Below are positions 3 through 33,644 of a DNA stretch of 33,983 nucleotides, one piece after another. The notes under the pieces are model-generated. The model saw nothing but the letters and a program-made list of their open reading frames with translations, was not told the origin of the DNA and made no database searches. The position numbers and the translations under genes were made by a program. The stretch comes from Bacteroidota bacterium (lineage in GTDB: Bacteria; Bacteroidota; Bacteroidia; CAIKAF01), in the NCBI GenBank assembly GCA_027621385.1, contig JAQCBQ010000004.1, positions 1 to 33,983 of the forward strand, read 5' to 3'. Numbering within the stretch: position 1 is the stretch's first letter; each line of letters begins with the position of its first letter.

Positions 3-3000
3 TCCTTAAAAGTTCCATTAAAATTAGAGGCATATCCTGAAGGACCGGCCTTGGTCTCCATCAACTCATTTGGATATGGCGGCACCAATGGTCACATGGT
101 GGTTCAAGAGCCCCCCCGCGATTATTTGGAAAACTTTAAACCCAATGGCAAAGATGTGCACCGCCACCAATGGTTGTTCCCCATTTCTGCGCGCAGCGAA
201 AACGCCCTTAAGGGCATCGCAGCTAAATATTTAGATTTTCTGAATAAGGGGCAAATTGGTCTGGCTGATTTCGCTTATTCTTTAAGCCATCGCCGCACAC
301 ACCACAACCACCGGTTGACCATCGTAGCCGGAACCAAAGAAGAATTGCTTGAAAAACTTCAGGCCTATGTAAATGGAGATGCTGCAGTAGGAGTAAATCA
401 ACAACAAACCGTCGAACAACCTCAATTGGTTTGGGTTTTCACCGGAATGGGACCACAATGGTGGGCCATGGGGCGTGAATTGTACCAACAAGAGCCGTTG
501 TTCAAAGCCAAATTGGACGAGTGCGATGCCATCTTCAAAGGGATTGCCGGTTGGTCATTGCTTGAAGAAATGATGAAGCCCGAGGCGGAATCTGGAATGG
601 CTGCGACTAAAATCGCTCAACCTGCCAACTTCTTTGTTCAAGCCGGTTTGATTGAATTGTGGGAAGCCTGGGGAATTCGTCCAGATGCGGTGGTTGGTCA
701 CTCTGTAGGTGAGGTTCCCGCTGCGTATTACTCAGGAGCCCTGACCTTGGCAGAAGGGGTATTGGTTTCATACCACCGTTCACGTTGTCAGCAAATGACT
801 GCCGGACAAGGCACCATGCTGGCCGTAGGTCTTGGAGAAGAAGATGCCCAAGCATTGGTCAATGAATTGGGACTGAGCTCAACCATTTCGGTAGCGGCCA
901 TCAATTCCTTTAGCGGAGTTACCCTTGCCGGAACCAAGGAGTCCTTGGAAAAAGTGGGCGAAGTGTGCACTCAACGTCAAATTTTCAATAAAATGCTGAC
1001 GGTTGAAGTGGCCTACCACTCCTATCAAATGGATCCGTTGCAAGAAGAATTGCTGAAGTCATTGGCTTCATTGAACCCGCAAACGGCAAAAATTCCATTG
1101 TATTCTACCGTAACCGGTACACGGATGGATGGAAAAGAGTTCGGCACGGAATACTGGTGGCAAAACGTGCGCCAGCCGGTACGCTTCGCTAAAGCAGCCC
1201 AAACCCTGGTAAATGACGGATATTCTATTTTCTTGGAAGTCGGTCCGCACCCCGTTTTGCGCACCAACATCAATGAATGCTTGACCGCCGCCGATAAAAA
1301 AGGATACACCATTCCATCTTTACGCCGTGGCGATCCGGAATTGGCGACCTTGTTGAACAGCTTAGGCATGCTTCATGGACTCGGATTCCAAGTGAATTGG
1401 TCTTCGTTCACCCAAGGCGGACACTTTGTTAAGTTGCCCACCTATGCCTGGGATATGGATGATTACTGGCAAGAATCTCCCCGCTCCATTGAAGAAAAGC
1501 ATGGAGTTGCCGGTCACGTTTTCTTGAACAACAATTTGAGGATGCCTTTCCCGGCATGGGAAGTGGAAATCAACCGCTACTTTATGCCTTGGATGGACGA
1601 CCATAAAATCGAATCCATGACGGTTATTCCCGGAGCCGCTTATGTGGAAGCCGGATTGGCCTTGCATGAAAAGACATTCGAAAATCAGGCATGTACCTTG
1701 CAAAATCTTGAATTCCACCAAGTATTGGTGGTTGATGAGAAAAAGGTCCAAATGTTCCATACTCAATACAATCCTGCTACCAAAGGCTATTCGGTGTACA
1801 GCAGGTATCGGGAAGACGATTCTCCTTGGACATTGCATGCTACTGGTCGTATGCTAAAGGATACGGTTTCGCGGACGATTCCCACCTTTGGCTTCAGCCA
1901 AGTTCAACAGCGCTGCACTCAAGAGCTCTCGGCGCCTGATTTGTATGTTACCCTAGCCAACCGCGGTCTGCATTACGGCCCTTGGTTCCAAGGAATCAAA
2001 CAAATTTTCAAAGGAAACAACGAGGTTTTGGTGCGCATTGAAGGAAACGATTCCTTGGCCATCAATACCGATAATTATTTGTTGCACCCTACCATTTTGG
2101 ACTCCGGATTCCAAACCATGGTAGCCATTGTAGAGGAAAGCAGCAACAATCCAAGTCCGTTTGTCCCGGTATCCATTTCGCAGGTGGTCTTTTACACCAG
2201 CCCCGGCGAAGCCTGCTGGAGTTATTGCCAGATTACGGAACGCAAAGAAAACAGCATCAAAGGAGATTTGATTTTGTTTGACGACCGCGGAGAAGTATTG
2301 GTGTCCTTGCACGGCATTACCTGTCAAGCCATTTCATCGGGAAGCGCTAGCGATGAGGATGCTTCCGATGAATGGTTCTATGAATACGAGTGGAAAACAT
2401 CAGAGCTGGAAAGCGTTTCGGTTGCAGGTGAACACTGGATGATTATGGGAGATGAGGGCGATTTGACCACCGATTTGATTGGAGCCCTTGCAGAACAAGG
2501 TGTAACCAGTACGCTGGTGATGCCCGGAGATGAGTATATGCTGGAAGACATGCTCGCCACCGTACGCTTGAATACAGAAGCCGACTTTTATCAATTGATG
2601 AAAGACACAAAAGACATGGGCATTGCTCGTGTGGTGTATTTGTGGTCGGCTCAACCGGATTCTGATGGTTTAAATCTGAGCCCAGATGGTATTGTAGATC
2701 GTACAATGCCCGCCGTGTTTTTGGGTAAAGCCCTTGCCGCGGAATGGGGCGGAAAATCCGTTAAATGGGCCAGCGTCACAACTGCTGCACAAGCTGTACA
2801 TACTGAAGAAGCTTTGGCCTCGTTGGAAACAACACCCTTCTGGGGAATGGCACGCCTAATCAGCAATGAACACCCCAACATTAAAACCTGCATGATTGAT
2901 TTAAGTGCCGCCGATGCCAATGCCTCGGTACTGGTGCAAGAACTCAGCAGCGATTGGGCTCAAGACGACGTGGCTTGGAGAAATGGAAAGCGCTATGTAA

Positions 3001-5249
3001 AAACCTTACAGCGGGCTTCATTTAAAGACGATTCAAGTGAAAAAACCATGATGGTCTCTACCGATACTCCGGTTTCACTTGAAATTGGTCAGATTGGTAG
3101 AATCGATTCTCTGCACTACGAGCGCACAGAACGCCGTGCCCCAGAAGCCGGTGAGGTTGAAATTCAAACCTTCGCCTCTTGCCTAAACCTGAAGGACGTA
3201 CTTAAAGTTATCGGTCAACTTTCACTAAAAGCGACCTCGGGTACGTATTTTGAAAGCACCTTCGGCATGGAGGCCAGTGGCATTGTAACTCGGGTAGGAG
3301 AGGGTGTTACTGAGTTTAAACCCGGTGATGAAATTGTACTTGCTGCTCAAAACGGCTGCTTAAAGTCCTATGTTACCGCCTTGCCAACCTTCTACATTCG
3401 CAAACCTAAGCACATTGCATGGGAAGATTGTTTGATGGTGGTTCCCTACATGACGGTGTTGTACGGATTGCGCGATCGGGCTCAGCTGCAACAGGGTGAA
3501 AAAATCCTCATACACAACGCTACCGGCGGAGTAGGTTTGGCCGCCATTCAATGGGCCAAACACGTAGGCGCCGAAATTTTCGCTACCGCAGGCAGCGAAG
3601 AAAAGCGCAATCATCTAAAGAACCTGGGTGTAGATCATGTGTACGATTCCAGGTCGCTGGATTTTGCTACCGATATTCGCAAAGATACCGGCGGATACGG
3701 AGTGGACGTGGTCATTAACGCCATCGCTGGCGAGGCCCTGTACCAGTCGTTCGAATTGCTGGCTTCCTACGGCCGATTTGTTGAAATCGGTAAACGCGAC
3801 ATTTCTGAAAACAATGGATTGCCAATGGCCGCATTCAACCGGAACATTACGTTCCACGGTATTGATGTGGATCGATTGATGATTGAACGGACTCCCGTCG
3901 TTCAAGGTTTGTTGCGCGACATCGAGCGGTATTATGACTCTGGTATTTTTGCCGCTGTCAACACCCATTTGTTTGCCGCTGCTGAGGCTGAAGAGGCCTT
4001 TACCTTCTTGGCCCAGTCTAAGCACATTGGTAAAGTGGTCTTGAATTTTAAAGACCAGCAGGTCCCCGTGGCCAAAGCCCAAGATACTCAAGAACTGGAC
4101 CTTTCGGGCTCGTATATGATTACCGGAGGTACGGGTGGATTTGGTTTGCAGATTGCCGATTGGTTGAGCCAGCGCGGCGTAGCACAGTTGATTCTAGCTT
4201 CCCGCAGTGGGGCCAAATCGGATGAAGCCAAAGAGGCCATTGCTAAAATGCAAGCCAGAGGAACACGCGTTTGGGCTGATCCGTTGGACATCACCAATGC
4301 CGAAGCCGTAAACACCATGATTCAATCCATGACGGGCAGCATGCCTCCCCTGAAAGGAATTGTTCACGGAGCTGTGGTTCTGGACGATGGTTTCTTGATG
4401 GACATGAACCGAGAGCGATTTATGACTTCCTTCCAGGCTAAAGTGGGGGGTGCATTGAATCTGCACCGTGCCACTCAGCATTTAAAATTGGATTTCTTCC
4501 TTTCCTTCTCTTCCATTTCAGCCTTAATCGGAAACAACGGTCAGGCCAACTATGTGGCTGCAAATGCCTTCTTAGATGGATTTGCTCATTACCGCCGTGG
4601 ACTTGGATTGGCAGGAACCACCGTGAATTTGGGTGTGTTGGGAGAAGTAGGTGTGGCTGCGCGCGACGCCAACGTTACGGCCATCTTGGAATCGGGTGGA
4701 ATCAAAGGGTTTAGTAACCGTCAGGCTTTAGATGGCTTGGGAATGGTACTGGACAATGCGCCTGTTCAAATTGGTATGTTTGACGTAGATTGGCACCGTT
4801 GGGCCAGCGTGAATGGAGCTGCCGCGCAGTCTTCTCGATTTAAAGATTTGGTGGCGGCTGCCGGTGCCGGAAGTGGAACCAATGCTGTGTTGGGCGAATT
4901 GGCCGCGGCGCTTACCGTGCTAAGCGACTCTGAGCGAATGGGCTACATGGAACAAGCTACGGCTGAAGAGCTGGCGGGTGTACTCAAACTTTCGGTTGAA
5001 AAAATTGACCGGAGCCGAGGAATCAACCTGTTGGGCATCGATTCGCTGATGGCGGTTGAGCTGGGCCGGGCCATTCAAGGCCGTTTTGGATTGGAGGTAA
5101 GCACCATGGAACTGTTGAGCGGTCCGAATACCTCTCAGCTGGCCAGCGCGCTCCTTGAAAAGGCAAAGGCTTCCGGAGCACTGGTGGGCAATGTCGATGA
5201 CCTGAGTGAGGAAGAACTTGATGCCTTGCTTGCCGAAGTAAAAGAGTAA
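3..5249 (+). CDS. Type I highly reducing polyketide synthase, 5'-truncated by window edge (KS end-AT-DH-psiKR-ER-KR-ACP)
   Basis: The reading frame is open to the left edge, so the listed TTG at 51 is not the start; most of the KS and its catalytic Cys lie outside. Residues below count from nt 51. The KS end is NSFGYGGTNGH. AT covers about 125-415, with FTGMGPQ and GHSVGE (Ser218); VAYHS resembles the malonyl-type HAFHS motif, a weak hint. DH covers about 486-770, with His518 in an HxxxSxxxxP variant (Ser replaces the usual Gly) and Asp684 in LDSGFQ. A structural KR half (about 780-1000) precedes ER (about 1010-1335, GGVGLAAIQ). KR covers about 1350-1600, with TGGTGGFG, an LDD motif typical of B-type KRs and Tyr1501. 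ACP has Ser1665 in GIDSLMA. The order matches iterative lipid-making PKSs such as mycocerosic acid synthase. There is no thioesterase, so chain release needs another enzyme. The product is unknown. Confidence 0.93.
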   Translation, partial: SLKVPLKLEAYPEGPALVSINSFGYGGTNGHMVVQEPPRDYLENFKPNGKDVHRHQWLFPISARSENALKGIAAKYLDFLNKGQIGLADFAYSLSHRRTHHNHRLTIVAGTKEELLEKLQAYVNGDAAVGVNQQQTVEQPQLVWVFTGMGPQWWAMGRELYQQEPLFKAKLDECDAIFKGIAGWSLLEEMMKPEAESGMAATKIAQPANFFVQAGLIELWEAWGIRPDAVVGHSVGEVPAAYYSGALTLAEGVLVSYHRSRCQQMTAGQGTMLAVGLGEEDAQALVNELGLSSTISVAAINSFSGVTLAGTKESLEKVGEVCTQRQIFNKMLTVEVAYHSYQMDPLQEELLKSLASLNPQTAKIPLYSTVTGTRMDGKEFGTEYWWQNVRQPVRFAKAAQTLVNDGYSIFLEVGPHPVLRTNINECLTAADKKGYTIPSLRRGDPELATLLNSLGMLHGLGFQVNWSSFTQGGHFVKLPTYAWDMDDYWQESPRSIEEKHGVAGHVFLNNNLRMPFPAWEVEINRYFMPWMDDHKIESMTVIPGAAYVEAGLALHEKTFENQACTLQNLEFHQVLVVDEKKVQMFHTQYNPATKGYSVYSRYREDDSPWTLHATGRMLKDTVSRTIPTFGFSQVQQRCTQELSAPDLYVTLANRGLHYGPWFQGIKQIFKGNNEVLVRIEGNDSLAINTDNYLLHPTILDSGFQTMVAIVEESSNNPSPFVPVSISQVVFYTSPGEACWSYCQITERKENSIKGDLILFDDRGEVLVSLHGITCQAISSGSASDEDASDEWFYEYEWKTSELESVSVAGEHWMIMGDEGDLTTDLIGALAEQGVTSTLVMPGDEYMLEDMLATVRLNTEADFYQLMKDTKDMGIARVVYLWSAQPDSDGLNLSPDGIVDRTMPAVFLGKALAAEWGGKSVKWASVTTAAQAVHTEEALASLETTPFWGMARLISNEHPNIKTCMIDLSAADANASVLVQELSSDWAQDDVAWRNGKRYVKTLQRASFKDDSSEKTMMVSTDTPVSLEIGQIGRIDSLHYERTERRAPEAGEVEIQTFASCLNLKDVLKVIGQLSLKATSGTYFESTFGMEASGIVTRVGEGVTEFKPGDEIVLAAQNGCLKSYVTALPTFYIRKPKHIAWEDCLMVVPYMTVLYGLRDRAQLQQGEKILIHNATGGVGLAAIQWAKHVGAEIFATAGSEEKRNHLKNLGVDHVYDSRSLDFATDIRKDTGGYGVDVVINAIAGEALYQSFELLASYGRFVEIGKRDISENNGLPMAAFNRNITFHGIDVDRLMIERTPVVQGLLRDIERYYDSGIFAAVNTHLFAAAEAEEAFTFLAQSKHIGKVVLNFKDQQVPVAKAQDTQELDLSGSYMITGGTGGFGLQIADWLSQRGVAQLILASRSGAKSDEAKEAIAKMQARGTRVWADPLDITNAEAVNTMIQSMTGSMPPLKGIVHGAVVLDDGFLMDMNRERFMTSFQAKVGGALNLHRATQHLKLDFFLSFSSISALIGNNGQANYVAANAFLDGFAHYRRGLGLAGTTVNLGVLGEVGVAARDANVTAILESGGIKGFSNRQALDGLGMVLDNAPVQIGMFDVDWHRWASVNGAAAQSSRFKDLVAAAGAGSGTNAVLGELAAALTVLSDSERMGYMEQATAEELAGVLKLSVEKIDRSRGINLLGIDSLMAVELGRAIQGRFGLEVSTMELLSGPNTSQLASALLEKAKASGALVGNVDDLSEEELDALLAEVKE

Positions 5250-5310: not shown

Positions 5311-5460
5311 GGGGGCCTTATCCGGCTTTCCGTTCTAGGTCAGTGCATACAACGGCACCGGGCTGGTCGCTGCATGGGCTCCCAAGGTCGCCTCCGCCCG
5401 CCCGCCCGGTGTTGCCGTTGTATGCACCGCCCTATCACTGCAATCCGGGGCCCGGCCGCC
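5311..5460 (+). repeat. Intergenic palindromic repeat, copy 1 (forward)
   Basis: This is the most divergent of five related copies. It has a CGGCTTTC left end, a central core GGCTCCCAAGGTCGCCT (5377-5393) and a CAATCC right end. Long arms GTGCATACAACGGCACCGGG (5343-5362) and CCCGGTGTTGCCGTTGTATGCAC (5405-5427) pair along their length apart from a 3-nt insertion. The core is identical to that of the copy after ftsZ. It lies 61 nt after the PKS stop, in the same orientation as the PKS. Confidence 0.8.
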
Positions 5461-5854: not shown

Positions 5855-5890
5855 GTGGGAAATTGTGGGACTTTGTGGGGAAAAGTGGGA
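5855..5890 (+). promoter_or_regulatory. Putative MraZ operator: four GTGGG boxes at 10-bp period
   Basis: GTGGGA, GTGGGA, GTGGGG and GTGGGA start at 5855, 5865, 5875 and 5885. MraZ of E. coli is known to bind tandem TGGG repeats in front of its own operon, so this array 35 bp before mraZ probably serves autoregulation of the dcw cluster. A weak promoter may overlap it: TTTG at 5872 and TAATTTAG at 5900-5907, though the spacing is a little long. Confidence 0.8.
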
Positions 5891-25666: not shown

Positions 25667-27220
25667 TTAATTGTTTCGTTTATCCGGTTTGGCATATTGA
25701 GAACCGCCACGGTGCACATAGCGGTTGTGTTTCGCAATGCCCATTGGAGGACCAATTCGATCCATGGCACAACGGAAACCAATCCATTCAGTAGAAGCTT
25801 GTTCGTCCAAATGACGGCGAGTGCCAGGAACCATCCAGTAGGCCGGATCTTTCCATGAACCACCTTTAATAACCCGAGACTGATTGTTAATTAAAGTGGT
25901 AGCACTGTAGTCGTACATGGCATGTGTTCCAGAAACCGAATCGGCGTAGCTGGCATCGTTGAAGTACAATGAAGAAACAACGTCTCCATCTTCATAATCC
26001 AAATAGTTGGCTCGCTTGTAGTTGCGGCGCATAGCGGCATCATCTTTGGTTACATCTACATACTGAATGCGACCTAAAGAATCTTTTTCCGCCAAAAAGC
26101 CTTCATCATCCAACAATTTCTTTTTGAAAACGTTACCGCGGAATGGGCGGAACTCATCAAAATCCATTAAAGAAAGCGGGCGATATACATCCATAACCCA
26201 TTCTGAAACGTTGCCGGCCATATTATATAAGCCAAAGTCATTGGGCCAGTAAGCATATACAGGAACGGTGGCATCTCCCATATCGTTCAGACGACCTGCA
26301 CTTCCCATGTAGTCTCCACGGCCACGACGAAAGTTCGCCAAGAAGTCTCCTTTGAATTTCTCATTCGGATTTCTGGAAATATGACCACTCCAGGGGTACA
26401 GCCTTTTCTCTTTAATGATTTCGCGGTCGGTGGAAGGATCTGTGTTTCCTACTAAAGCCAATGCAGCATACTCCCATTCTGCCTCGGTTGGAAGTCGGAA
26501 TTTAGGAAGAAGCAAACCATCTTCAATACGCACTTTACGTTGTTCTCCGGTAAAAATATTTACAGGTTGGAATTTCTTTTTATTGTTCAAACCAAGTTCA
26601 TATTGACCAGCCAGATAGGCTTCAGTGTTGAAGTTTTCTTCTGCCAATTGCTCTTGAGGATGCCAAACCATGATTTTTTCCCGAACCATGATCATTTCAT
26701 TGGTTCGGTCGGTACGCCAGGCGCAAAAATCATTGGCTTGAATCCAGCTTACTCCTACAACAGGGTAGTAATTGTAGGCAGGATGCCGTAAATAGTTGTC
26801 GACATAATTGTCAAAAAAGCCCATTTTAGATCTCCAAACCAGGGTGTCGGGCAATGCCTTTGTCAACACCTCAGGGTAATCTTCTCCAAAAACCCGCTTT
26901 ACCCATTCCAAATATTCCCGGTAGGCAACATTGGAAACTTCAGCCTCGTCCATATAGAAGGAAGAAACTGTTACTCTGCGCGGTTGATTGTCATGTTCAA
27001 ACAGAACGTCTTGTTCTACTTGACCCATTACGAAGGTGCCTCCCTCAATAAGTACAAGACCAGGACCTGTTTCTTGTTCAATGTACGGCGGAACCTCAAA
27101 GCCACCATTGCGGGCATCGTTGTATGCCCATCCTGTGGTAGATGAAATTTGTTGGTCTTTGCAAGATGCAAAAGCCGCAACAAGTGCGGCTAACATTCCA
27201 ACTTGAGTTATTTTTTTCAT
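25667..27220 (-). CDS. gldJ: Gliding motility / type IX secretion lipoprotein GldJ (FGE-sulfatase fold)
   Basis: The start at 27220 (minus) is chosen because MKKITQVGMLAALVAAFASC is a lipoprotein signal with the lipidated Cys20; the ORF-track start adds 15 unsupported residues. The 517-aa product has the SUMF1/FGE fold, with GPGLVLIEGGTFVMG, SSFYMDEAEVSNVAYREYL, PVVGVSWIQANDFCAWR, FRLPTEAEWEYAA, YNMAGNVSEWVMDV and GGSWKDPAYW. The Cys pair used by formylglycine-generating enzymes in the GGS region is absent, so a structural role is expected. In gliding Bacteroidota GldJ stabilizes GldK and the outer-membrane ring. Being GldJ rather than GldK is inferred from the ETGPGLV start and from linkage to porU and porV, as in Flavobacterium johnsoniae. 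Confidence 0.87.
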   Translation of the reverse strand: MKKITQVGMLAALVAAFASCKDQQISSTTGWAYNDARNGGFEVPPYIEQETGPGLVLIEGGTFVMGQVEQDVLFEHDNQPRRVTVSSFYMDEAEVSNVAYREYLEWVKRVFGEDYPEVLTKALPDTLVWRSKMGFFDNYVDNYLRHPAYNYYPVVGVSWIQANDFCAWRTDRTNEMIMVREKIMVWHPQEQLAEENFNTEAYLAGQYELGLNNKKKFQPVNIFTGEQRKVRIEDGLLLPKFRLPTEAEWEYAALALVGNTDPSTDREIIKEKRLYPWSGHISRNPNEKFKGDFLANFRRGRGDYMGSAGRLNDMGDATVPVYAYWPNDFGLYNMAGNVSEWVMDVYRPLSLMDFDEFRPFRGNVFKKKLLDDEGFLAEKDSLGRIQYVDVTKDDAAMRRNYKRANYLDYEDGDVVSSLYFNDASYADSVSGTHAMYDYSATTLINNQSRVIKGGSWKDPAYWMVPGTRRHLDEQASTEWIGFRCAMDRIGPPMGIAKHNRYVHRGGSQYAKPDKRNN

Positions 27221-27286
27221 GCCTAGGCAGTTTAAAGCGAATACAAAGGGATAACGAAAGTACAAAAGATTATTGTATGTCCAAGT

Positions 27287-28255
27287 TTAGAAAGAAGGAC
27301 AGCGAACAGTTCGGAATCGACGCATAGGTTGTCGGCATGGAATTTTTAAGCCCAACGAAATTTCATGCGAGCCTGCAGTCCGGTTGGTTAGTCTTGAAAT
27401 GGTTACATCATAGGAATACCCAATTCTCCAGGTGTCGCGTTGTAAGCCAAACAGTGCAATAAAGGAATCGTTATTGCGGTACCAAATTCCACCTACAATA
27501 GGTCCTTTTCCGGCATACAAACCAATGTTTAATTGATAAAAGGATTGCTGCAACATAAAAAGAACGTTGGGAGAAATGAACAAATCACCGGAATACTTAC
27601 GGCGCTTGCCCAAGGGAATCATGGCTCCAAAATGAGTAGTTAACTTAAAGGGTAGTGCACTTGCACCCAAAAAACCCTCATTTGGCTGAGTAATATGATG
27701 AATGGCGGCGCCACCATAAAATATTTGATTGTACAAGACGGCCCCTGCGGCAAAATCAATCATCACCTTCTCGTCGTTATCAAAAACCTCTTGAGTAGCA
27801 TAAATAAATCCGTAGCGGTCATCAATTTGGTCCCCAAAGGTCAGTTTACCTACATCTAAGCTGCGTTGCAAAATACCCACTTCCGCCGCCAAGCGCAGGC
27901 TGGCCTTGCGTGACAATTTGATTAAATACGAATATGAAACGGCAAAATTGTGCGAGGTAATGGTATTCGTTCCGGCTTCATCCCGCATCATGCGGATGCC
28001 AATCCCACCTTGCAAGGCATCAAAATGCTGATCGTAAGAAACAGCATATGTTCTATAATTTCCAGAAATACCGGTCCACTGAAAACGGCTGTTCATGGAA
28101 ATTCTAGGGCAACGGACAGAGCCGGCAAAAGCGGGGTTCAAATATATTTGGTTGGCATAAAACTGAGTAAATTGAGGGTCTTGGGCCTCTGCCGTAACCA
28201 CTGCTAACCCACCGGCCAACACCAAAAATATCTTCTTTAAAATGTTATTTACCAT
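27287..28255 (-). CDS. PorP/SprF family type IX secretion outer membrane protein
   Basis: The 322-aa product starts with a signal peptide (MVNNILKKIFLVLAGGLAVVTAEA) and then QDPQFTQFYANQIYLNPAFAGS, the hallmark N-terminus of the PorP/SprF family. Repeated beta-strand patterns and HEISLGLKIPCRQP near the C-terminus agree with a membrane beta-barrel. Members work in type IX secretion, often paired with a particular surface adhesin; no large adhesin gene is next to it here. It lies 66 nt upstream of gldJ on the same strand, so the two may share a transcript. It is divergent from porU. Confidence 0.9.
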   Translation of the reverse strand: MVNNILKKIFLVLAGGLAVVTAEAQDPQFTQFYANQIYLNPAFAGSVRCPRISMNSRFQWTGISGNYRTYAVSYDQHFDALQGGIGIRMMRDEAGTNTITSHNFAVSYSYLIKLSRKASLRLAAEVGILQRSLDVGKLTFGDQIDDRYGFIYATQEVFDNDEKVMIDFAAGAVLYNQIFYGGAAIHHITQPNEGFLGASALPFKLTTHFGAMIPLGKRRKYSGDLFISPNVLFMLQQSFYQLNIGLYAGKGPIVGGIWYRNNDSFIALFGLQRDTWRIGYSYDVTISRLTNRTAGSHEISLGLKIPCRQPMRRFRTVRCPSF

Positions 28256-28280
28256 AACCGAAGAATGGACATATGAAGTT

Positions 28281-28288
28281 CAAAGATA
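28281..28288 (-). promoter_or_regulatory. -7 promoter box for porP
   Basis: On the minus strand TATCTTTG matches TAnnTTTG exactly, 25 nt before the porP ATG. A -33 TTG is not clear. It probably drives porP and possibly gldJ. Confidence 0.6.
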
Positions 28289-28538
28289 AGAAACGGGAGT
28301 AAAGTTAGAACATATTTTAACATTTTGATGTTGAAAATGCAGAAGGCTCTCGGTCAAAACCCAAAGTCGAGGTGTTTGCATATCCTAAAATTTAATTCAT
28401 TTCTAACCCATGAGGTATACGAAAATCGATTGTGCCGCGTTATTGGCTCGATCTTGCATCAGATTTCTCCTTTAAAGTTACGATTTAATTTTAAAAATTC
28501 AAGTCTTTCCATGCCTGCGTTCAGATTTTCTTGTTGGA

Positions 28539-28570
28539 TTTGTACCTGTGCCCTCCAACATGTACCTTTA
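28539..28570 (+). promoter_or_regulatory. -33/-7 promoter for porU
   Basis: TTTG (28539-28542), a 20-bp spacer and TACCTTTA (28563-28570) fit the Bacteroidota TTTG/TAnnTTTG promoter, with one mismatch in the last base. The -7 box ends six nt before the chosen porU ATG. Confidence 0.6.
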
Positions 28571-28576
28571 CATTCT

Positions 28577-31500
28577 ATGAGGTTGTTCGTTTTTGGAATT
28601 GTTTTTTTTCTTGGTTTAACTGCATCGGCTCAGCCCAATCCAATTCGTGTTTCTCTTGATTTGAAAGAGCGGGTGCAAGCCGACTCGAAGGATGAGACCA
28701 TAGAATTGATGGGCTTAAATGCATTTCCCGATTCCAAGCGACCTTCGTGGTCCCTTGTATTTGAACGCGGTCAGGCCCTGATGTCGTACTCCGTTCGGCC
28801 CATTTCATTCGATACACTTAGAACGAATGCGCAGGTGCTGGCAGATCTGCCACTTTTAAGTCATGAAATTCGCACCAAGGCCTTGCGGTATTCTGTTCGT
28901 GGAGAACAATTCCTGCGTTTGATTGGCGACGCGCTTTTTAAAGATACGGATGGCCACATCCTTTTAATTAAAGAGGTAGAACTCGCCCCTCAACCCATTA
29001 TCTCATCAGAAAGTGCTACCAAATCGTTTTCATTTCCCCTCAGTTCTTCGGTCCTTAATTCGGGAACTTGGTTTAAATTGGGAATGGTTTCGGAAGGGGT
29101 ACACCGCTTAGATTACAATCAGTTGTTGCAATGGAATGCCATTAGCGGCCCCATATCATCCAATCAATTGGGTATGGTGGGGAACGGCGGCTACCGATTG
29201 GCGGAAGATTTAAATGCCCCACGTCCAGATGACCTTCAACCCATTCCTTTGCAGATTGAAGACGGCGGAGACGGTCAATTTGGCCCAGGAGACTTTCTCC
29301 TGTTTTACACGCATGGATTAAAACGCTGGGTTTGGAACGGTCAGCAATACGAGCATGACAATAATATGTATTCCGATACTGTCTATGCTTTTTTTAGTCC
29401 CAATCAGCCGGGGCCCCGACTTCAAAATCAAACCATGCCACAGGGGTTGCCTGAGTATATCACCAACAAGGGAGACTTTTTCCAATGGGTAGAAGAAGAA
29501 AAGCAAAACCTCATTAAATCAGGCCGAAAGTGGTTTGGCGATGTGTTTAGCTTTACCAATACCTATTCGTATTCATTTTCCTTAGGTAACTGGACGCCGG
29601 GAGATTCCGTTTCCCTTCGAATAGCTACCGCTGCCCGATGTGTCAGTTGCTCTTCTGTGTTTTCGTTTTCAGCCAATGGAATTTCTGTGGGCAGTGCCAC
29701 TTTGGGTCAGGTTTCCAGCAATTACGCCGGCAACTACATCACTGAAAATACATTTTCAACCCGATTTCCCGTAAATTCCAGCACGCTGTCTGTTCAGGTT
29801 TCTCGAACCAGCCCCCAATCCGGTTCTGAAGATCAACGCGCCTGGTTGGATTATGTTACCGTCCATTACCGACCAACGCTTCAGTTTAGCGGGCAACCCT
29901 TCGTTTTTCAAGATCATAAGGCAGCGGGATTGGCCGAATTTCGAATCTTAAATCCAAGCTTACCTATGCAAATGTGGCGGGTCGATGACATGGCCAACCC
30001 CCTAAACCTTAAAACGGCATCTGCTAGCGGTTTTGATTACGTTCGCCTTGAAAATGCAGAAGGAGCTAAGTTGGTTGTGTTTGGAGCACCCAATACCCTT
30101 CCATCGCCTTCCTTCTTCGGACAGGTCCCCAATCAAAATATCCATGCCCTGGTCGCTTTAGACCCTGTCCCAGATTTGGTGGTAATTACGCATCCTTCTC
30201 TTGTGCAACCGGCCACAGAACTTGCCGAAATGCACCAAGTGCAAGACGGAATGGTGGTGCACTTGGTTACAACAGAACAGATTTTCAACGAGTATTCCAG
30301 CGGCGGCCAGGATATTTCCGCTCTTCGGGATTATGTTCGCAGCTATTTCCAATTTAGGGGCGATTCCATTGGTCCTCGATATGTTATGCTTTACGGTTCT
30401 GGCAGCTTCGACTATCTACCCCATCGAAACCGGCTTTCGGCCCCCAATCACAATTTGGTGCCCTCGTTTCAAACTTGGGATTCGCGCAGCCGAAGCGGCG
30501 GTTCTCACCCCTCTGATTTTTTCTATGCGGCATTCAGCCCGAACACCAGCAGCGACGGTGTGGTGAACAGCAGTACGCCCATTTGGCTTGGCATAGGTCG
30601 CGTGTTAGCTACCACTGCAGAAGAAGGATTTGCTTACAATCGAAAAGTTCAGCATTATCAAGAAAGCAGCGATTGCTTCGGAGATTGGCGCAACACTGTA
30701 ACGCTGTTCTCTGACGATATGGAAGCCGCGTGGGAAAGCAGCTTTATTACCGACAACGAATGGATTTACCAATGGCTGAAAACCAATCAGCCCGTTTGGA
30801 ATGTTGATAAGGTTTACATTGATGCGTTTCAACAAAATACCACAGCTGGGCAGAGGTATCCGGAAGCCAACGATTACTTGAATCGGCGAATAAATAAAGG
30901 CACCTTGTTTTTAAATTACATTGGCCATGGTGGCGAATCCGGACTTACCGCAGAACGAGTACTGCAAATCGATGACATTGAAAAATGGACAAACTCCAAT
31001 CAGTCTTCGATTTTCTCCACAGCAACCTGCACCTTCACCCGGTTTGATGACCCAACCTTTGAATCGGCCGGAGTGCGCGTTCTGCAACGAGAAGATAAAG
31101 GAGCAGTAGCCTTATTGAGTACAGTTCGAGCCATTCCGGTGGTTCCAACTTACCTTAAAAAATGGACTCAGGTCACCTTCGGAGGGTTTGATGCTTCTGA
31201 TACACGCTTGGGAGATATCCTGTTTGAATCTAGAAAATGCATTCCCAGTTGCGACGGTGGAGAAAACAATATTTTACTTTTTGGCGACCCTGCCTTGCGT
31301 CCCGCTTATCCTAGGTATTTGGTGCTGACAGATAGCATAAATGGACAGGCCATTCAAAATGAATCTTTTGATGATACCCTAAAGGCAACAGATGTGGTTC
31401 GGATCAGTGGCCGAATCGCCACCCGCGATAGCATACTAATGGACTCCTTCAATGGGATTATCTCGGTCACGGTGTACGATAAACCCCAGCAACTTCAAAC

Positions 31501-32404
31501 CCTTAAAAACGATGCTGAAGGGATGAACTTTGATTTTGAAATCCAAAATTCGGTGGTTTTCCGGGGCCAAGCTAGCGTTCAAAACGGTCAATGGAGCATA
31601 CAGTTTAAGGTGCCGCTGGATATCAATTACTTGGTAGGCGAAGGAAAATTCAGCTATTACGCACACAACGGAAACGTGGACGCTCATGGCTACCAAGCCA
31701 ATATTAAAATTGGTGGTGCCTCCGGAAACTGTGAAAACGATGGACAAGGCCCAGAAGTTACCTTATTCATGAACGACTCCCTGTTTGTGAATTTAGGAAT
31801 TACCCATGCTTCGCCCACATTTTACGCAGAAGTAAACGACGCAAGCGGCATCAATACGGCCAATGGAGGCATTGGCCATGAAATTCAACTGAGCATTACG
31901 GGCCCTGTGAATCAAACATTTTACCTCAATGATTATTATGAGGCGGCCATCAACAGCTACCAATCCGGCTCAATCCGCTTCCAATTGAAAGACCTGCCCG
32001 AGGGCTTTTATACGGCCGAATTGTTGGTCTGGGACGGCTGCAATCAAGCCACTCGAACAACATTGAATTTTACGGTAGTCGGAACGCAACCCAATCTGAT
32101 TCGCGCAGAAGCTTGGCCAAATCCATTTGATAATCAAACGGCGTTAACGTTCCAACACAATTTAGCCGGAAAAGAACTAAAAGCCCATGTCCGCCTCACC
32201 GATGTGAGTGGAAGTTTGGTCAGAGAATTCAATTGGAACGGCAACTCAACAGGTTTCCAAGGTATCAATTTAACTTGGGATGGCACAAACAGCAGCGGCT
32301 CAAAAGTCAGTCCGGGCATGTATATTTTTTCGGTACAGCTGTCAGACGAGTTCGGTCAGGCTGCCTATGGCTATGGCCGAGTTATTTATGCCGGACGCCC
32401 ATAA
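28577..32404 (+). CDS. porU: Type IX secretion sortase PorU (C25 gingipain-like)
   Basis: The ATG at 28577 is preferred because it begins a clear signal peptide (MRLFVFGIVFFLGLTASAQ); the 84 extra residues in the ORF track do not fit. The 1275-aa product has a long N-terminal beta-rich region, then a caspase-like C25 peptidase domain. Its predicted catalytic His784 lies in NYIGHGGESGLT and Cys818 in STATCTFTRFDDP. A type IX C-terminal signal domain follows (AEAWPNPFDN ... GMYIFSVQL). PorU cleaves the C-terminal signal from cargo at the cell surface and joins cargo to the anchor, as part of the attachment complex with PorV. It is followed by porV after 52 nt. Confidence 0.95.
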   Translation: MRLFVFGIVFFLGLTASAQPNPIRVSLDLKERVQADSKDETIELMGLNAFPDSKRPSWSLVFERGQALMSYSVRPISFDTLRTNAQVLADLPLLSHEIRTKALRYSVRGEQFLRLIGDALFKDTDGHILLIKEVELAPQPIISSESATKSFSFPLSSSVLNSGTWFKLGMVSEGVHRLDYNQLLQWNAISGPISSNQLGMVGNGGYRLAEDLNAPRPDDLQPIPLQIEDGGDGQFGPGDFLLFYTHGLKRWVWNGQQYEHDNNMYSDTVYAFFSPNQPGPRLQNQTMPQGLPEYITNKGDFFQWVEEEKQNLIKSGRKWFGDVFSFTNTYSYSFSLGNWTPGDSVSLRIATAARCVSCSSVFSFSANGISVGSATLGQVSSNYAGNYITENTFSTRFPVNSSTLSVQVSRTSPQSGSEDQRAWLDYVTVHYRPTLQFSGQPFVFQDHKAAGLAEFRILNPSLPMQMWRVDDMANPLNLKTASASGFDYVRLENAEGAKLVVFGAPNTLPSPSFFGQVPNQNIHALVALDPVPDLVVITHPSLVQPATELAEMHQVQDGMVVHLVTTEQIFNEYSSGGQDISALRDYVRSYFQFRGDSIGPRYVMLYGSGSFDYLPHRNRLSAPNHNLVPSFQTWDSRSRSGGSHPSDFFYAAFSPNTSSDGVVNSSTPIWLGIGRVLATTAEEGFAYNRKVQHYQESSDCFGDWRNTVTLFSDDMEAAWESSFITDNEWIYQWLKTNQPVWNVDKVYIDAFQQNTTAGQRYPEANDYLNRRINKGTLFLNYIGHGGESGLTAERVLQIDDIEKWTNSNQSSIFSTATCTFTRFDDPTFESAGVRVLQREDKGAVALLSTVRAIPVVPTYLKKWTQVTFGGFDASDTRLGDILFESRKCIPSCDGGENNILLFGDPALRPAYPRYLVLTDSINGQAIQNESFDDTLKATDVVRISGRIATRDSILMDSFNGIISVTVYDKPQQLQTLKNDAEGMNFDFEIQNSVVFRGQASVQNGQWSIQFKVPLDINYLVGEGKFSYYAHNGNVDAHGYQANIKIGGASGNCENDGQGPEVTLFMNDSLFVNLGITHASPTFYAEVNDASGINTANGGIGHEIQLSITGPVNQTFYLNDYYEAAINSYQSGSIRFQLKDLPEGFYTAELLVWDGCNQATRTTLNFTVVGTQPNLIRAEAWPNPFDNQTALTFQHNLAGKELKAHVRLTDVSGSLVREFNWNGNSTGFQGINLTWDGTNSSGSKVSPGMYIFSVQLSDEFGQAAYGYGRVIYAGRP

Positions 32405-32426
32405 CCCATATTAACTGAAACTGACC

Positions 32427-32434
32427 TATATTTG
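32427..32434 (+). promoter_or_regulatory. -7 promoter box for porV
   Basis: TATATTTG is an exact TAnnTTTG match, 22 nt before the porV ATG and after the porU stop. porV may thus be transcribed both on its own and by read-through from porU. No clear -33 TTG is seen. Confidence 0.6.
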
Positions 32435-32456
32435 CACAGCAGGAATTACATTTAGC

Positions 32457-33644
32457 ATGCACACAATTTTCAAACATACTGCGCTTGCCCTACTTTGTGT
32501 TGGAGCAGCTACTTCTACAAGCCGCGCTCAAGACAGCGAGCCTACACGGGTTGTAACAACCTCCGTTCCTTTCCTGGTCATCGGCCCCGACGCTAGAGCC
32601 GGAGGAATGGCCGATCAAGGTGTTTCCACCTCTGCCGATGCCAATTCACTGCATTGGAACGTGGCTAAACTTGCCTTTGTTGATAAACCCATGGGAATGT
32701 CGGTATCTTACACACCCTGGCTGCGAAATTTAGTTCCGGATATCAATTTGGCCTACGTAGGGTTTTATGGAAAAATCAACGACCGCTTTACCGTTGGTGC
32801 CTCGCTGCGCTACTTTAATATGGGCGATATTAACTTTACGGATGAAGTCGGCATGTTTATGGGGACGTTTACTCCCAATGAATTGGCCATCGATGCCGGA
32901 GGTTCTCTGCTTTTGTCTGAGTATTGGAGCATGGGCATTAGCTTTAAATTTATCAGTTCTAACCTTACGCTGGGGCAGCAAGTCAACGGTCAACCCACAC
33001 AGCCCGGTTTGGCCGGTGCAGGTGATTTGGGTTTTTATTTTCAAAAACCCGGTCGTAAAATTGCCGGATTTCCCGTCATGTATCGCTTCGGAACCGCTAT
33101 CCAAAATATCGGGTCAAAAATTGATTATGGCAGTGCCCGTGGTCCGGAATGGATTCCTGTGAATTTCCGATTGGGTGGTGGAGCTGAACTTAAAATTGAC
33201 GACTACAATCGAATTGCCTTGAATTTGGAAGTCAGCAAGTTGCTTGTTCCAACTCCGCCAGAAACCAACATTACTGGCGATACCATCATTGCGGGACAAG
33301 ACCGCGATCGCCCTGTCCTCACAGGTATGTTTACTTCGCTGGCCGATGCGCCCGGTACCGGAGTATATGGTAGCGTGTTTGCCGAAGAAATGGACGAGTT
33401 TGTTTGGAGCATTGCTGCAGAATATTGGTACGGAAATGTCCTTGCCATCCGTTCAGGGTTCTTCTATGAATCGCCCCGCAAAGGCAACCGGCAATATGTA
33501 ACCTTAGGCGCCGGTTTGCGCTACAAAGTCTTCGGTCTAGATTTCGCGTACGTATTGCCCGTCGGCGGTCGCACAAATCCCCTTTCCAACACGCTACGCT
33601 TCACCCTAAGCTTTGATTTCGCAAAGGGTTTCGGAAAAAATTAA
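32457..33644 (+). CDS. porV: Type IX secretion outer membrane protein PorV (LptO)
   Basis: The 395-aa product has a signal peptide (MHTIFKHTALALLCVGAATSTSRA), then the PorV hallmark VPFLVIGPDARAGGMADQGVSTSADANSLHWN (quoted in part as GPDARAGGMAD). Alternating amphipathic strands of a FadL-like barrel follow, ending in TLRFTLSFDF, a typical outer-membrane barrel end. PorV collects cargo from the SprA translocon and presents it to PorU. Adjacent genes encoding the shuttle and the sortase are typical of type IX organisms. Repeat copy 5 begins about 43 nt after the stop. Confidence 0.95.
   Translation: MHTIFKHTALALLCVGAATSTSRAQDSEPTRVVTTSVPFLVIGPDARAGGMADQGVSTSADANSLHWNVAKLAFVDKPMGMSVSYTPWLRNLVPDINLAYVGFYGKINDRFTVGASLRYFNMGDINFTDEVGMFMGTFTPNELAIDAGGSLLLSEYWSMGISFKFISSNLTLGQQVNGQPTQPGLAGAGDLGFYFQKPGRKIAGFPVMYRFGTAIQNIGSKIDYGSARGPEWIPVNFRLGGGAELKIDDYNRIALNLEVSKLLVPTPPETNITGDTIIAGQDRDRPVLTGMFTSLADAPGTGVYGSVFAEEMDEFVWSIAAEYWYGNVLAIRSGFFYESPRKGNRQYVTLGAGLRYKVFGLDFAYVLPVGGRTNPLSNTLRFTLSFDFAKGFGKN

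Follow-up and report, generated by a model that had tools for sequence, protein, structure and literature searches.

The polyketide synthase (PKS) gene at the left edge of the DNA analysed here (the window, bases 1-33983 of contig C39 in assembly G000, from a little-known Bacteroidota lineage) is probably one part of an unlinked pathway of the SgaA/SgaB/reductase type for PKS-made sphingoid bases. In the mechanism we propose, the PKS would add malonyl units in repeated, fully reducing cycles to a saturated, probably unbranched chain held on its own ACP. A PLP enzyme of the alpha-oxoamine synthase (AOS) family, encoded on contig C15, would take the ACP-bound chain and join it, in a condensation that releases CO2, to an amino acid, most likely serine. 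The product would be a 3-keto long-chain base, whose keto group an extended SDR encoded on contig C24 would reduce to give the amino alcohol. This order of release, condensation and reduction is drawn by analogy with SgaA, SgaB and SgaC.

The assembly is 94% complete and fragmented (246 contigs, 2.36 Mb), and the ORF at 3..5249 (+ strand, 1748 aa), open at the left edge, is the 3' four-fifths of the PKS gene. From N- to C-terminus, Pfam finds the C-terminal extension of a KS, an AT (429..1385, PF00698, 259 bits), the N and C parts of a DH (1515..2348, PF21089 and PF14765), a zinc-type ER (3078..4046, PF08240, PF00107 and PF13602, with a TIGR02824 span), a KR (4107..4640, PF08659, 204 bits) and an ACP (4965..5153, PF00550, 42.6 bits), all on the + strand, with no match to a thioesterase in the 1748-aa part. 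The active-site motifs are intact, namely GHSVGE in the AT, DHKIESMTVIPGA and LHPTILDSGFQ in the DH, HNATGGVG in the ER, the Ser/Tyr/Asn set in the KR and LLGIDSL, with its GIDSL motif, in the ACP. Domain order and motifs thus bear out the first-pass annotation, which had described intact AT, DH, ER, KR and ACP sites and no thioesterase. The same annotation had named an inactive KS as the finding that would overturn its reading; the KS lies at the end of contig C51 (L001, ORF 1474-2739, 422 aa), with DTACSS, EAHGTGT and KTNIGH all there, and on this point the reading stands. The window gene is therefore part of an intact KS-AT-DH-ER-KR-ACP PKS without thioesterase.

The last 71 bases of C51 agree with the first 71 of the window at 64 positions (7 mismatches), and the KS piece and the window part map side by side on the complete PKS gene of the related genome G003, so that the join is sound, if not base-perfect; the mismatches are probably due to strain variation. 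G003 carries the whole gene between pgk and mraZ, as an open frame of 2,151 aa in the order SHMT, PGK, a small ORF on the reverse strand, PKS, mraZ and dcw, and its protein is 99.5% identical over the window part of the PKS. The dN/dS of 0.019 against G003 indicates strong purifying selection, and values of about 0.03 were obtained against G005 and G001, with dS near saturation for both pairs. The gene occurs in all six genomes of the genus and in three of the six genera of the family. No neighbourhood of the PKS is conserved within the family; its surroundings change with the genus, from pgk and mraZ to an ACR-type pump and polyprenyl synthetase, a rhodanese-MBL gene and others.

Some other features of the window were recorded alongside. 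Just 5' of mraZ, at 5855-5890, three overlapping matches to GTGGGA-N4-GTGGG stand at 10-base spacing (0.24 expected by chance); they resemble MraZ operator repeats and are ordinary. The intergenic region between PKS and mraZ holds a 36-nt imperfect inverted repeat (5322-5448, 81% complementary, arms 55 nt apart), which is shared with G003 alone among the loci compared. At 25667-33644 lie type IX secretion genes, encoding a protein with an FGE-sulfatase domain, PorP/SprF, a PorU-like C25 peptidase and PorV.

The first-pass annotation had placed a loader, a releasing enzyme and any phosphopantetheinyl transferase (PPTase) probably to the left of the window. That position is taken by SHMT, PGK and the small reverse-strand ORF. 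The candidate releasing enzyme, the AOS, is on C15, the candidate reductase on C24 and the sole PPTase-family gene found on C127. Likewise, a FAAL or other loading enzyme upstream was considered and dropped, since the three AMP-binding ORFs of the genome are on other contigs; neither FAAL nor acyltransferase genes adjoin the PKS, which has housekeeping genes beside it here and other housekeeping genes beside it in related genera. Reading the DH motif at 1602-1631 as HxxxSxxxxP was correct as to the Ser, but this residue is no special feature, as the position is S, G, N or A in close relatives and N in mycocerosic acid synthase (MAS).

The clue to a partner came from relatives. We scanned named genomes, obtained 77 PKS loci and clustered their neighbour genes. 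In 21 of the 77 loci a gene of about 445 aa, encoding a PLP enzyme of the AOS family, follows the PKS on the same strand, directly in most cases and otherwise within 2 kb. The hosts of these linked pairs include Planctomycetota, Cellvibrionaceae, Nitrosomonas, Methylobacter, Nitrospira, Terasakiella, Nocardia and Mycobacterium, among others. On a Planktothrix plasmid the two enzymes are fused into a single protein of 2,532 aa; on a Pseudomonas plasmid the PKS adjoins the AOS in a cluster that includes LTA-synthase-like, GNAT and SDR genes; on a Paraburkholderia plasmid they are one gene apart; and the marine locus L069 has contiguous genes for a PKS, an AOS and an SDR whose Pfam type is that of the C24 protein. 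Other relatives of the PKS have no AOS neighbour and stand beside NRPS or thioester-reductase-like genes, so the family as a whole is not tied to one partner.

Within this collection, the gene after the related PKS in two Acidobacteriota loci (L064 and L079) is not an AOS but resembles Male-sterility/thioester-reductase genes (shown for L079), and in L079 a sulfotransferase-like gene also follows; PKSs of this type would here release their chains in a different way. Six loci from Nitrosomonas, Nitrospira and Methylobacter (L088, L090, L092, L095, L124 and L127) hold a related PKS-AOS pair with no ER motif in the alignment. The genes that follow encode an MMPL transporter and a LolA-like protein, joined in some loci by a PPTase, and apparently serve to export the product. 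One record (L059, JACSSC010000058.1), titled Candidatus Competibacteraceae, has its PKS placed as in G009, a Bacteroidota genome of the family studied here; its name looks wrong, or the record mis-binned.

If the PKS of the window works with an AOS, such an enzyme should be encoded in the same genome and, among relatives, only in those that have the PKS. We tested this prediction by searching the 16 genomes of the family (G000-G015) with the AOS of one PKS-linked pair; widening the choice of genomes to the order yielded these 16 again. A full-length homologue, 53-58% identical and including the N-terminal extension, was found in G000-G005, G009 and G012-G015, whereas G008 had only a fragment at the end of a contig. 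The PKS-negative genomes G006, G007, G010 and G011 gave nothing above 38% identity. In the genome of the window the homologue is the SgaB-like protein of about 461 aa on C15. In genera g4 and g5 the next gene downstream of the AOS encodes the extended SDR, whose conservation is 70-100% across the family's 12 PKS-positive genomes and at most 31% in the PKS-negative ones; in the genome of the window it is encoded on C24 and is of the extended HpnA/3-beta-HSD-like type. It may resemble CerR, the bacterial ceramide reductase, but we make no claim of this. Two other neighbours of the AOS, a glycosyltransferase gene that follows it in four of the genomes of the genus and a two-component pair that precedes it, were considered as pathway parts and set aside, since neither is conserved with the trio.

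When the AOS search was extended to 247 Bacteroidia, a single genome outside the family, G136, was found to have the enzyme, and it has the PKS (50%) and the SDR (59%) too, each of the three on a different contig; in its congener G024 all three are absent. PKS, AOS and SDR thus occur together in 13 of 13 PKS-positive genomes from two orders and in none of five PKS-negative relatives; given the kinship of these genomes, we take the tally as roughly two independent contrasts. Among the Bacteroidota genomes examined, PKS and AOS are nowhere adjacent, as illustrated by C39/C51 and C15 in the genome of the window and by the contigs of G136.

The phylogenies of the two enzymes agree with each other. 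In the AOS tree, the Flavobacteriales sequences fall in a clade that otherwise consists of PKS-linked or PKS-fused AOSs alone (99/98), apart from KBL, BioF and cysteate-type enzymes and also from the Sphingobacterium serine palmitoyltransferase (SPT) once this was added. In the PKS tree, the Flavobacteriales proteins join the PKS of G136 (L060) and then the AOS-linked PKSs of Cellvibrionaceae (L078 and L081; SH-aLRT 98), and the same Cellvibrionaceae pairs are the nearest group to the Flavobacteriales in the AOS tree (SH-aLRT 86, by a quick method). These matching placements fit a common descent of both genes from one linked pair.

The first demonstration of bacterial sphingolipids made by a PKS dates from 2025 and concerns two neighbouring genes of Pseudomonas (PMC12134224). 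In P. fluorescens MYb115, PfSgaA and PfSgaB together make C24-C28 sphinganines; PfSgaB has SPT activity, prefers L-serine almost exclusively and rejects alanine and glycine, and SgaC, an SDR described as a KDSR homologue, is the proposed 3-keto reductase (PMC12134224). Our search for literature on SgaAB-type lipids found no other paper, and as far as we found, the clustered Pseudomonas pair is the only one for which a bacterial PKS-AOS route to sphingoid bases has been shown. The parts correspond to those described here, with an iterative single-module type I PKS, a PLP-dependent AOS of SPT fold and an SDR as candidate 3-keto reductase. They are arranged differently, in that the PfSga genes form a two-gene cluster inside a larger gene cluster whereas the Bacteroidota PKS is unlinked from its AOS, and AOS and SDR are adjacent in g4 and g5 only. 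The likeness to the Sga enzymes is judged from their published description, and the SDR found here is of the extended HpnA/3-beta-HSD-like kind where SgaC is called a KDSR homologue. Measured against what defines an SgaAB-type system, the genome has a single-module reducing type I PKS without thioesterase and an AOS of the PKS-linked clade, but the two genes are not adjacent; this lowers the case for calling the locus an SgaAB cluster, not the case that it works like SgaAB. The fungal pathways to fumonisin and sphingofungin share the off-loading of a reduced polyketide chain by an AOS (PMC12134224, PMC7711896), but they are clustered, their products are further oxidised, and the match of the AOS to SphA (PDB 9pep) is weak (8.5e-28).

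Besides the AOS of C15, the genome has three other AOS-family ORFs, a KBL (C209, above its own cut-off), a cysteate-type enzyme (C192) and a BioF-like protein (C44). Across these four ORFs, none of the three NCBIfam SPT cut-offs was reached by the SgaB-like AOS (311 bits with the Bacteroidota SPT model, whose cut-off is 640), the KBL or the cysteate-type enzyme, and the BioF-like ORF had no match to the SPT models at 1e-60; judged on these ORFs of a 94% complete assembly, a canonical SPT is likely absent from the genome. The Sphingobacterium SPT (PDB 8guh/3a2b) belongs to the same PLP alpha-oxoamine synthase family as the C15 protein, but the latter is extended at its N-terminus by a stretch that includes a basic helix, and its PKS-linked clade lies outside SPT. 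The cysteate-type ORF (C192:7233-8345, L207) matches cysteate-C-fatty acyltransferase at 5e-170 and SPT at 9e-67, which suggests that the lineage makes sulfonolipids.

This last enzyme raises an alternative, that the PKS feeds the sulfonolipid pathway and capnine-type bases are made from its chains, which we regard as very improbable. Cysteate-C-fatty acyltransferase (PDB 28eh) is itself an AOS-family enzyme, and the C192 ORF is far nearer to it than to SPT. Its homologues, however, occur regardless of the PKS: an ORF of this type is also present in PKS-negative G006 and G010 and so does not depend on the PKS, and the enzyme is about 31% identical to the PKS-linked AOS query and falls outside that clade. 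Slightly better, but still poor, are the chances of the idea put forward in the first-pass annotation, a MAS-type PKS whose product, a long fatty acid that is saturated or methyl-branched, would pass to another acyltransferase for an unusual lipid. What we find next to dcw in this Bacteroidota genome is indeed a fully reducing, probably iterative module for making lipids, built like MAS; MAS and Pks2 of mycobacteria have the same KS-AT-DH-ER-KR-ACP order and lack a thioesterase, and the best solved relative is MAS (9d2z). Methyl branching is where that idea falters, as the AT reads TKIAQP...VAYHS where MAS has VQP...VASHS, and the bulky Tyr in place of Ser gives it a malonyl-like signature, which points to malonyl-CoA as extender. 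Membership of the MAS/Pks2 equivalog (NF041183) is not supported, since the 1748-aa part scores 879 bits and the KS piece 396 where 2400 is the cut-off, and the strict co-occurrence is with an AOS and an SDR, with no FAAL or acyltransferase next to the gene. A literature search for MAS-like PKSs in Bacteroidetes found nothing relevant.

The strongest competitor, although unlikely, keeps the same PKS-AOS partnership and lets the AOS use alanine, glycine or another amino acid; the cell would then secrete a specialised metabolite, an amino ketone or an amino alcohol, and would not make a sphingoid base for its membrane. Enzymes of the AOS family do differ in their amino acid (the match lists contain KBL, BioF, the cysteate enzyme and SPT), and serine use has been demonstrated for PfSgaB alone; that enzyme, however, rejects alanine and glycine (PMC12134224), and the strong constraint on the genes, together with their retention in every one of the six genomes of the genus, fits a core function better than a niche metabolite. 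That the PKS is a recent acquisition or a functionless relic is hardly credible: although its presence in the family is patchy (three of six genera) and it has no linked cluster, the dN/dS of about 0.02, the intact active sites, the presence throughout the genus and a GC content of 0.495 against 0.469 in the rest of the window all speak against it. A PKS-made chain released by the AOS and reduced by the SDR is thus the reading we favour.

How two proteins encoded apart might meet is suggested by their ends. The PKS finishes in an acidic 15-residue tail, LSEEELDALLAEVKE (5202..5246, + strand), with a net charge of -5 to -7 over the last 22 residues, and the AOS begins with a basic helix, LSVEEKKELLKKLMKEKA (net +2 to +3); both are conserved in the lineage and present in G136. 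The tail may be a docking helix for the N-terminal helix of the AOS, and the two may help the proteins to find each other despite their separate genes. A LSxEExxxLL-like motif is strongly concentrated at PKS C-termini (of 2,672 60-aa stretches taken from the interior, 4 have it), but 6 of 46 PKSs without an AOS neighbour carry it too, some of them followed by other partners, and the strict pattern of the tail is present in just 3 of 21 AOS-linked PKSs and missing from L078 and L081, the nearest of these. As the motif is general at PKS C-termini and not specific to AOS partners, its value as AOS-specific evidence is weakened and docking is put forward only as a suggestion.

A fuller version of the favoured pathway is possible, although we hold it to be doubtful. 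PKS and AOS would be a core but dispersed system and the primary source of sphingoid bases for the membrane, in the place that SPT with ordinary fatty acids holds in other Bacteroidota. The lineage would have gained the genes together, as a single unit akin to the linked pair of Cellvibrionaceae, before they were scattered, and the two proteins would make contact through tail and helix.

The survey of such gene pairs in PMC12134224 relied on adjacency, and a survey of this kind would miss pairs whose PKS and AOS genes are not neighbours. Co-occurrence across genomes can assign 'orphan' reducing PKSs to a partner; here, it turns an apparent orphan into a testable pathway with a candidate reductase and a possible docking pair. 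Our findings suggest that the PKS-AOS route to sphingoid bases also exists, with the genes for PKS, AOS and reductase dispersed in the genome, in Bacteroidota, which as a phylum are known for sulfonolipids and for sphingolipids made by SPT.
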